Both the position numbers and the translations under genes were made by a program. The notes below the pieces were generated by a model that saw only the letters and a list, made by a program, of their open reading frames with translations, made no database searches and was not told the DNA's origin. A stretch of 13,798 nt of DNA from a bacterium (lineage in GTDB: Bacteria > Bacillota_I > Bacilli_A > RF39 > UBA660): the NCBI GenBank assembly GCA_004560915.1, contig SFTR01000015.1:1-13798 (forward strand), read 5' to 3'. Shown in pieces: positions 5,753 to 6,979 of the stretch; the first letter of the stretch is position 1, and the number at the start of each line of letters is the position of its first letter.

Positions 5753-6979
5753 ATGTTAATATTAGGTATTTGTGATGTTCCAGAAGTGTTAGAGGTTATG
5801 AGAGTTGTAAATATAATAGTATTAATTCTTAAAATAGTTGTACCAATTATTTTAATAGTTTCTGGTATGGTTACTTTTATGAGTGCTATAAAAGTTGGAA
5901 ATGAAGATTTTCTTGCTCAGGCAAAGAAGTCTTTAATAAATAAATGTATTGCGGCTGTTGCTATATTTTTAGTACCTACAATAGTTAGTGTTTTAGTTAA
6001 TATTTCGGGGCCTGACAATGAATATAAAAATTGTTTAGAAGCTGATGCTACAACAATTAATCAAGCATATAATAATAAAGCTGATACTTTACTTTCTAAA
6101 GCTGAAAGTTCTAAAAAATTAGAGGATTATTCTAATGCTGTTACTGCTGTTGCCGGTGTTAAAGATGAAACTAAAAAGCAAGAATATCAAAAAAGATTAG
6201 ATGCTTTATATAAGGAAATACAAAATAATATGAATTCAGGTTCAGGAAGTGGTTCTGGTTCTGGCAGCGGTTCAGGTTCTGGTAGTGGTTCTGGTAGTGG
6301 TTCTGGTTCAGGAGGAAGTTCTGGTGGTAGTTCTGGATCAGGCAGTGGAAGCGGTTCAGGATCAGGATCTGGTTCTGGAAGTGGAAGTGGAAGCGGTTCT
6401 GGCAGTGGTTCTGGTTCAGGCAGTGGCTCTGGATCAGAAAGTGGTTCTGGTAGCGGAAGCACAGGTACAATAGCTGGTACAATATTTATGGGTGACTCAA
6501 GAACAAATGGATTAAAATTAAATGCTGGTCTTCCTTCAACTGATAAAGTGGTTGCTAAAGATAGTGGAGGATACAATGATTTTGTAAGTCATATAAATAC
6601 AGTTAATGGATATCTAAGTGATGGTAAAAGTTATAACATAGTACTCAACTATGGAGTTAATGACTTAGGAAATGCATCTAAATATTGTGATAAATATAAA
6701 TCATTTATAAATAGTGTTAACTCAAAAAATAAAGTATATGTAGTTAGTGTTAATCCTGTACGTGATAGTGGGAGCAAATACGCTAAAAATGCAACTATAA
6801 AAGATTTTAATAGTACTATAAAATCATGTATTTATGGACTTAAAAATACTAAATATTGTGATGTATATGGAAGTGCATCAATGAGTGTATGGGAAGAATC
6901 ATATATAAGTGGTGACTCAATACACTATACACCTAATGGATATAAATATATCTATTCTGTAATTAAAAAATGTATGTAA
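5753..6979 (+). CDS. Membrane-anchored SGNH/GDSL hydrolase with pilin-like N-terminus and Gly-Ser linker
   Basis: A 408-residue surface protein with four visible parts. (1) Residues 1-86 resemble the VirB2/TrbC-like, Mbov_0395-type small membrane protein: two hydrophobic helices (about 19-43 and 64-85) joined by a basic loop (47-64, several Lys). By the positive-inside rule, both ends face outside. (2) Residues 87-161 are a charged, probably helical spacer. (3) Residues 162-236 are almost pure Gly-Ser. (4) Residues 240-408 are an SGNH hydrolase with block I F-M-G-D-S249, block III G-V-N303-D and block V D388-S-I-H391, i.e. a complete Ser-Asp-His set. Family members remove acetyl or other acyl groups from cell-wall or surface glycans, or act as lipases; the substrate here is unknown. 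It has its own promoter; trmL follows after 12 bases. The fusion of a pilin-like anchor to an esterase is unusual. The domain calls are from motifs, the topology is inferred. Confidence 0.8.
   Translation: MLILGICDVPEVLEVMRVVNIIVLILKIVVPIILIVSGMVTFMSAIKVGNEDFLAQAKKSLINKCIAAVAIFLVPTIVSVLVNISGPDNEYKNCLEADATTINQAYNNKADTLLSKAESSKKLEDYSNAVTAVAGVKDETKKQEYQKRLDALYKEIQNNMNSGSGSGSGSGSGSGSGSGSGSGSGSGGSSGGSSGSGSGSGSGSGSGSGSGSGSGSGSGSGSGSGSGSESGSGSGSTGTIAGTIFMGDSRTNGLKLNAGLPSTDKVVAKDSGGYNDFVSHINTVNGYLSDGKSYNIVLNYGVNDLGNASKYCDKYKSFINSVNSKNKVYVVSVNPVRDSGSKYAKNATIKDFNSTIKSCIYGLKNTKYCDVYGSASMSVWEESYISGDSIHYTPNGYKYIYSVIKKCM
6236..6460 (+). repeat. Gly-Ser coding repeat (about 75 codons)
   Basis: An in-frame run of alternating Gly and Ser codons, interrupted only by a G-G-S-S stretch in the middle and one Glu (G-S-E-S-G-S) near the end. 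Codons are mixed (GGT, GGA, GGC; TCT, TCA, AGT, AGC), so the DNA is an imperfect 6-base repeat while the protein pattern is strict. The stretch is far richer in G and C than its surroundings. It serves as a flexible extracellular linker between the anchor and the hydrolase. Confidence 0.9.

Follow-up and report, generated by a model that had tools for sequence, protein, structure and literature searches.

According to passages of a 2025 review (PMC12857230), VirB2 is absent from the type IV secretion systems (T4SSs) of Gram-positive bacteria except those of Patescibacteria. The Gram-positive systems do have VirB1-like enzymes (PrgK, TraG and Orf14), described in parts of the same review as extracellular, membrane-anchored wall enzymes that belong to conjugation systems (PMC12857230). 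In Patescibacteria, which are monoderm, VirB2-like pilins are arrayed near chromosomal virB4, and the passages on these arrays make no mention of fusions to enzymes (PMC12102498). Here we describe a gene that joins a hairpin of the VirB2-like pilin type to an SGNH hydrolase domain. It lies on the forward strand of a 13,798-nucleotide stretch of bacterial DNA (13.8 kb; contig SFTR01000015.1 of assembly GCA_004560915.1), hereafter called the window. On balance, we favor the reading that a non-cleaved hairpin related to pilins tethers envelope enzymes, and that the window copy is an extracellular, membrane-tethered SGNH protein, probably an esterase that acts on O-acyl groups of the cell's own envelope.

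As in the VirB2-like pilins of Pfam family PF18895, the membrane part is a two-helix hairpin of about 70–90 residues with its ends outside as judged by charge, and in the bacterial order concerned the same domain occurs near VirB4. Unlike those pilins, the window hairpin is apparently uncleaved, sits at the N-terminus of a 408-residue enzyme, has a conserved cysteine pair, and is without any T4SS match in its window. The N-terminal fusions described here differ from the VirB1-like enzymes in having no T4SS gene match around them in most cases (17 of 20 regions), in covering many enzyme families, and in having a pilin-like hairpin as anchor. The membrane part of OatA is an acyltransferase-3 domain, whereas that of the window protein is a two-helix hairpin without known catalysis; the acyltransferase-3 family (PF01757) was not matched in the window protein at E≤1. 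The sialate O-acetylesterase of Bacteroides/Phocaeicola vulgatus (6njc, 7pzh), whose substrate is sialic acid according to the PDB title, has solved chains of 196–221 residues without hairpin, bundle, or linker. Each domain of the window protein is already known. What is apparently new is the system: order-wide display of many kinds of envelope enzyme, all tethered by one pilin-like hairpin, in a mycoplasma relative with a small genome. No description of such hairpin-enzyme fusions was found among the papers listed in the literature searches, whose coverage leaves out most subscription papers and preprints, and the novelty is therefore provisional. At the level of sequence, our comparison establishes the architecture, its conservation, its reuse with many enzymes and, in the sample and at the sensitivity used, its restriction to one order. 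The features of the gene are:

5753..6979 (+): whole gene, 408 residues (hairpin, three-helix bundle, Gly/Ser linker, SGNH domain); single open frame with an ATG start, homologues with the same domain order
5753..6043 (+): VirB2/T4SS-pilin-like membrane hairpin, residues 1–97, with C7, P31, F72, P75, and C94; PF18895, near-invariant columns in 68 fusions, charge bias, model
6044..6241 (+): three-helix bundle spacer, residues 98–163; predicted helices
6236..6460 (+): 75-residue Gly-Ser linker, residues 162–236; composition, pLDDT <50 over most of it
6464..6976 (+): SGNH/GDSL domain, residues 238–408
6497..6499 (+): catalytic Ser249 of GDSR (block I); invariant in homologues
6659..6661 (+): Asn303 of GVND (block III); invariant in homologues
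6914..6925 (+): Asp388 and His391 of DSIH (block V); invariant in homologues

Our search of 5.8 billion proteins gave 103 matches, on separate contigs. With profiles cut from an alignment of the fusion (A1), 76 of them were found to carry both hairpin and SGNH domain, five the hairpin only, one the SGNH domain only, and 21 neither. Seven of these 21 have pure Gly/Ser runs of at least 21 residues and are probably matches to the tract; all 21 were excluded from the relatives. The 76 proteins provide the domain order that the initial annotation had wished to see in related genomes, and support its view that the single reading frame is one gene. So does a contig of a metagenome-assembled genome (MAG) titled 'Tenericutes bacterium' (L001, JALFKQ010000003.1), which keeps the adjoining methylase gene: the orthologue there is flanked by genes for an EamA transporter and a SpoU-family methylase, and an RNase J gene is found farther along. 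These four genes keep their order in the window, where pyruvate kinase stands between transporter and fusion. The 75-residue Gly-Ser stretch reported earlier is present at residues 162–236 (38 Ser, 36 Gly, and 1 Glu) and uses four Ser codons and three Gly codons. Autocorrelation of its DNA at seven lags (6 to 42) was not above that of synonymous-codon shuffles, the maximum being reached in 690 of 2000. With no excess of periodicity and with mixed codons, there is no sign of recent DNA duplication or of a collapsed repeat. The linkers of 18 aligned relatives are 11–62 residues long and of varied composition, as against 78 residues in the window between the same alignment columns. This suggests that only a flexible spacer is conserved and that the Gly-Ser tract is a local elaboration, not the key feature it had first been taken for. 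The rival idea that an assembly error or chance joined two genes at a repeat, which a long low-complexity tract exactly at the domain junction might suggest, is refuted by the homologues with both domains, differing linkers and separate contigs, and by the tract's codons and periodicity; we give it practically no weight.

PF18895 (T4SS_pilin) matched residues 17–81, with 27.7 bits for residues 1–90 alone but 23.1 for the whole protein (cut-off 26.6). Of the VirB2/Mbov_0395-like domain proposed for this region, the pilin-like two-helix hairpin was supported, while the Mbov_0395 model (NF045849) reached only 11.6 bits against a curated cut-off of 40. Both structure prediction and charge indicate a two-helix hairpin with a positive inner loop. 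The AlphaFold model of the whole protein (19-sequence alignment; overall pLDDT 79.3, pTM 0.45) has two long helices at residues 10–48 and 51–84 and further helices at 90–95, 99–120, 123–134, and 139–162; the linker after them is disordered, and the SGNH domain is modelled with confidence. Residues 1–165, modelled with a 35-sequence alignment, gave a mean pLDDT of 90.9 and a pTM of 0.73. Structure prediction, which had been suggested as a check, thus recovered hairpin helices and SGNH domain alike, and what had been called a charged helical spacer was modelled as three helices (residues 99–163). In an alignment of 68 N-terminal fusions from the lineage, near-invariant columns were C7 (66), C94 (67; both cysteines in 66), P31 (67), and F72 and P75 (64 each); the count of the cysteine pair varies with the method, being 59 of 68 by a sequence-window rule and 66 of 68 by alignment column. 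The loop of these fusions averages 5.2 Lys/Arg, as against 0.8 per flank, and its net charge is greater than that of both flanks combined in 68 out of 68. From this bias an N-out/C-out topology is predicted, which would place the enzyme and both cysteines outside; prediction thus supports the earlier proposal of a pilin-type membrane anchor that holds a surface enzyme. Should the predictions for these proteins hold, C-x23-P ... F-x2-P ... C (numbered as in the window, with loops of varying length) would be a signature by which to search for the surface proteins of the order.

The A1 profile, which includes the SGNH domain, matched 21 places in three Tenericutes MAGs, 182 of 193 genomes in the order of genome G002, and 90 of 98 in the family of G001. 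Our sample of 145 distinct hairpin open reading frames (ORFs), taken from the listed matches at loci chosen for a long frame or a high score and hence non-random, comprised 68 N-terminal hairpins (at least 120 residues after the hairpin), 36 C-terminal ones, and 41 classed as standalone, a label for fewer than 120 residues beyond the hairpin that also takes in a few proteins of greater length. The initial annotation had held that the anchor is normally found alone; with 68 N-terminal and 36 C-terminal fusions against 41 standalone-classed hairpins in this selected sample, that does not apply to the lineage. The 68 N-terminal fusions came from 34 genomes, with at least nine in G011 and at least eight in G002, since per-genome numbers are lower bounds. 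One cargo class was assigned per ORF (Pfam, E≤0.01; SGNH by a profile of our own). Peptidoglycan-type domains made up 31 of the 68: M23 (6), NlpC/P60 (6), CHAP (5), VanY (5), amidase_3 (2), glucosaminidase (2), YkuD (2), and one each of S11, phage lysozyme, and an endolysin-like domain. The others were SGNH (14), C39-like (9), alpha/beta hydrolase (6), and unassigned (8). Known members of the families counted as peptidoglycan-type, which do not include C39, act on peptidoglycan. Among the 46 classified non-SGNH fusions, 11 were below the Pfam cut-off: five peptidoglycan-type (L074, L076, L102, L129, and L116:1501), three C39-like, and three alpha/beta hydrolases. An alignment-wide scan agreed broadly with these cargo classes. 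Sortase matches were found in all 34 fusion-bearing genomes, which suggests that the hairpin is an additional display route and not a replacement.

Some further fusions were noted in the same sample. In L116:1501-2892 (+) and L127:1483-2892 (+), the hairpin is followed by a Big_2 Ig-like domain and then by a YkuD L,D-transpeptidase-type domain (just below cut-off in L116); judged from sequence, these are possible hairpin-tethered cross-linking enzymes. The hairpin is at the C-terminus in 36 ORFs (L030:211-1761 (+), L035:1489-2691 (-), L107, L110, L118, and others), some of which have, by eye, a signal-like start and many cysteines. Three C-terminal-hairpin proteins scanned with Pfam gave the hairpin alone or weak matches.

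Hairpin profile A5 (E≤1e-5) matched 18 of 392 genomes of the phylum (G001 and G005–G021), all of one order, and no genome outside that order in this sample. The assignment follows from G005–G021 having been drawn from the order of G002, and from the family of G001 sharing many members with that order. The order is probably RF39, uncultured Tenericutes. Passages of a 2024 study infer that the ancestor of RFN20/RF39/ML615J-28 lost most penicillin-binding proteins (PBPs) and lyt/cwl endopeptidases, and give unidentified replacement genes as one possibility (PMC10868615). If the order is indeed RF39, the hairpin-tethered M23, NlpC/P60, CHAP, VanY, amidase, and glucosaminidase proteins are candidate replacements.

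Relatives of the hairpin were found in secretion loci. One such locus, in G002, combines VirB4 (PF19044, 49 bits; PF12846, 45 bits) and VirD4 (PF02534, 174 bits) with a C-terminal-hairpin protein and with PrgI-like and VirB6-like ORFs that have no Pfam match; in G001 the hairpin is a standalone one, which comes after a Tad-type set (TadA: PF00437, 95 bits). The names VirB4, VirD4, and TadA are backed by Pfam, while VirB6-, PrgI-, TadB-, and TadC-like were given by eye and CpaB comes from a match below cut-off. Regions around C-terminal or standalone hairpins had a VirB4, VirD4, or VirB6 match in 14 of 20 cases (VirB4 in all 14), with Tad genes also in eight; those around N-terminal fusions had one in three of 20 (VirB4 in two), and Tad genes in none (Fisher p 0.001). 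In 13 of the 14 VirB4-bearing regions (L163-L167, L171, L174-L179, L181, and L182), VirB2-like hairpin ORFs stand in arrays of 2–5, one of these ORFs, in L175, being an unassigned N-terminal fusion; three long ORFs with hairpin scores of 20–25 bits were dropped from the count, and 13 of 14 regions still had at least two.

VirB4 was found in 173 of the 193 genomes of the order, mostly in single copy, with 170 at E≤1e-170 and three distant matches (G100, G113, and G119; E 1e-100 to 1e-28). Identity to the G002 query was 68–78% among the matches listed, and 89% in G001. In the phylum sample, 105 of 392 genomes had a VirB4 match: 17 in the order, with best scores of 957–1219 bits, and 88 others, all at or below 333 bits. 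On these sequence comparisons, the VirB4 of the order is much better conserved than any outside it in the phylum sample, and its system looks like a domesticated core secretion system. L069:14617-16404 (-) is the locus we cite for this near-universal VirB4. In the window itself there was no match to VirB4, VirD4, or VirB6, nor to a Tad gene. Hairpin relatives in a T4SS conserved across the order, with most of the sampled enzyme fusions elsewhere, support the reuse of a pilin-type domain. Hairpin relatives arrayed beside so conserved a VirB4 also contrast with the absence of VirB2 from Gram-positive systems as stated in the passages of the review (PMC12857230).

The SGNH domain belongs to a divergent branch. 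Its score against PF13472 (30.2 bits, or 27.8 when the whole protein was used) fell short of the cut-off of 32.9. It is the complete catalytic domain that had been proposed, with S249, N303, D388, and H391 intact and invariant in 19 aligned sequences; these four and G301 are also invariant in 15 of 15 sequences (the window and 14 genomic fusions). The model has the SGNH fold, including that of the C-terminal SGNH domain of OatA. Fold matches within about 2 Z units included lipase/acylhydrolase, OatA, sialic acid esterases, and PatB, and with so many nearly tied the fold cannot choose the specificity. The only enzyme match of the protein was SGNH/GDSL, and no peptidoglycan-cleaving domain was found in it. 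Cysteines 369/407 (present together in 10, both missing in 5) and 312/359 (together in 3, both missing in 12) co-vary strictly among the 15 sequences, kinship being ignored, as disulfides would.

PBP transpeptidase domains were found in 12 of 12 genomes tested, and parts of two papers indicate that a wall is probably made in the group (PMC10868615, PMC7301438). Together with the many peptidoglycan-type sister fusions, this favors an envelope O-acyl esterase, and with moderate confidence we take the window copy to be probably such an enzyme acting on the cell's own envelope. Our inferences on membrane topology, disulfide bonding, the direction of evolution, and the enzyme's substrate and reaction are as follows. 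Residues 1–97, left uncleaved, would form a hairpin in the membrane, two helices joined by a K/R-rich loop on the inside and with both ends on the outside, and C7 and C94 would meet on the outer face, probably as a disulfide. With the three-helix bundle and flexible linker as spacers, the SGNH domain would reach the zone of the wall. Its most likely action there would be to strip O-acyl groups, probably acetyl, from the wall or a surface polysaccharide of the cell itself, so that the polymer may be opened to sister hairpin-tethered wall hydrolases. The hairpin would have a common origin with the VirB2-like, pilin-type proteins encoded at the core type IV secretion locus, and would have been put to new use as an all-purpose tether for enzymes of the envelope.

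Several results weigh against this proposal. For the hairpin, the whole protein scored 23.1 bits against PF18895, below the cut-off of 26.6; the structure search with the hairpin-plus-bundle model gave no pilin among the matches listed, the list being filled by matches to the bundle; and by the same cruder rule the cysteine pair is rarer in standalone-classed hairpins (17 of 41) than in fusions (59 of 68). The hairpin tree is unrooted and, with 10 label changes required to account for the fusions, does not decide between derivation from pilins and a shared ancestor. The genomes, where titles were seen, are MAGs and may be incomplete. The hairpin might also be a still-working VirB2-like pilin, the fusion being assembled by or within the T4SS machine with its enzyme on the pilus or around the channel. 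It is after all the domain of the pilin-type proteins arrayed beside VirB4, itself present in 173 of 193 genomes, and a few of the sampled fusions, unlike most, are close to VirB4: an SGNH fusion (L202, G139) at about 3 kb and an M23 fusion (L188, G029) at about 5 kb, while the unassigned fusion L175:12588-13658 (G182) lies between VirB4 and TadA. However, 17 of 20 N-terminal fusion regions and the window are without a VirB4, VirD4, or VirB6 match, and G166, G103, and G226 carry fusions with no VirB4 match, which would fit independence from the T4SS or incomplete assemblies; we consider a working pilin quite unlikely. It is likewise a distinctly improbable idea that the hairpin is a sorting and assembly tag, by which the core T4SS of this monoderm order would insert, extract, or mount tagged wall enzymes to give an enzyme-bearing pilus or channel; if true, it would mean T4SS-mounted wall enzymes in a mycoplasma-related bacterium.

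As to the reaction, the fold search ranks SGNH structures of widely differing specificity about equally and so gives no direct pointer to the substrate, and 37 of the 68 fusions are not peptidoglycan-type; both points also count against the esterase proposal. The domain could instead be an O-acyltransferase of the OatA/PatB kind, acetylating the wall outside the cell with supply from a separate membrane acyltransferase. We think this unlikely. Acyltransferase families able to supply acetyl groups are uneven in the genomes (PF01757 in nine of 12, MBOAT in five of 12), and G002 has an SGNH fusion but matches neither; these findings sit uneasily with the esterase proposal. The initial annotation had also named host glycans as a possible target, and host or dietary glycans (acetyl esters of sialic acid, mucin, or xylan) might serve feeding or colonisation. 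Profile A2 matched chains of the Bacteroides sialate O-acetylesterase (E 4e-4), behind Bacteroides GDSL-like chains at 2e-6, and the fold is also compatible with acetylxylan esterases. But an inward-facing role is suggested by the tether and by the many sister proteins of peptidoglycan type, and by eye no glycan-uptake genes were seen beside the gene in the window or in L001. In our analysis the peptidoglycan-type families in 31 of 68 fusions favor the cell's own envelope as the target, and a host or dietary substrate appears rather improbable.

The two genes next to the fusion are:

4283..5686 (+): pyruvate kinase, upstream neighbor, not part of the fusion; PF00224, 355 bits
6992..7504 (+): SpoU-family methylase (TrmL-type by eye), downstream neighbor; PF00588, 99 bits here and in L001

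Elsewhere in the window, two small ASCH-domain proteins (2601-2951 and 3818-4198; PF04266, 45 and 27 bits) lie on either side of the EamA transporter gene. At positions 81-2562, genes for an ArsR-type regulator and for an E1-E2 P-type ATPase are separated by that of a small protein which by eye resembles a metal-binding domain. A 116-residue protein at 9425-9775 has one apparent membrane stretch and no Pfam match, and by eye is like a short CpaB/SAF-type protein; a 137-residue ORF in L001 (8629-9042) resembles it.
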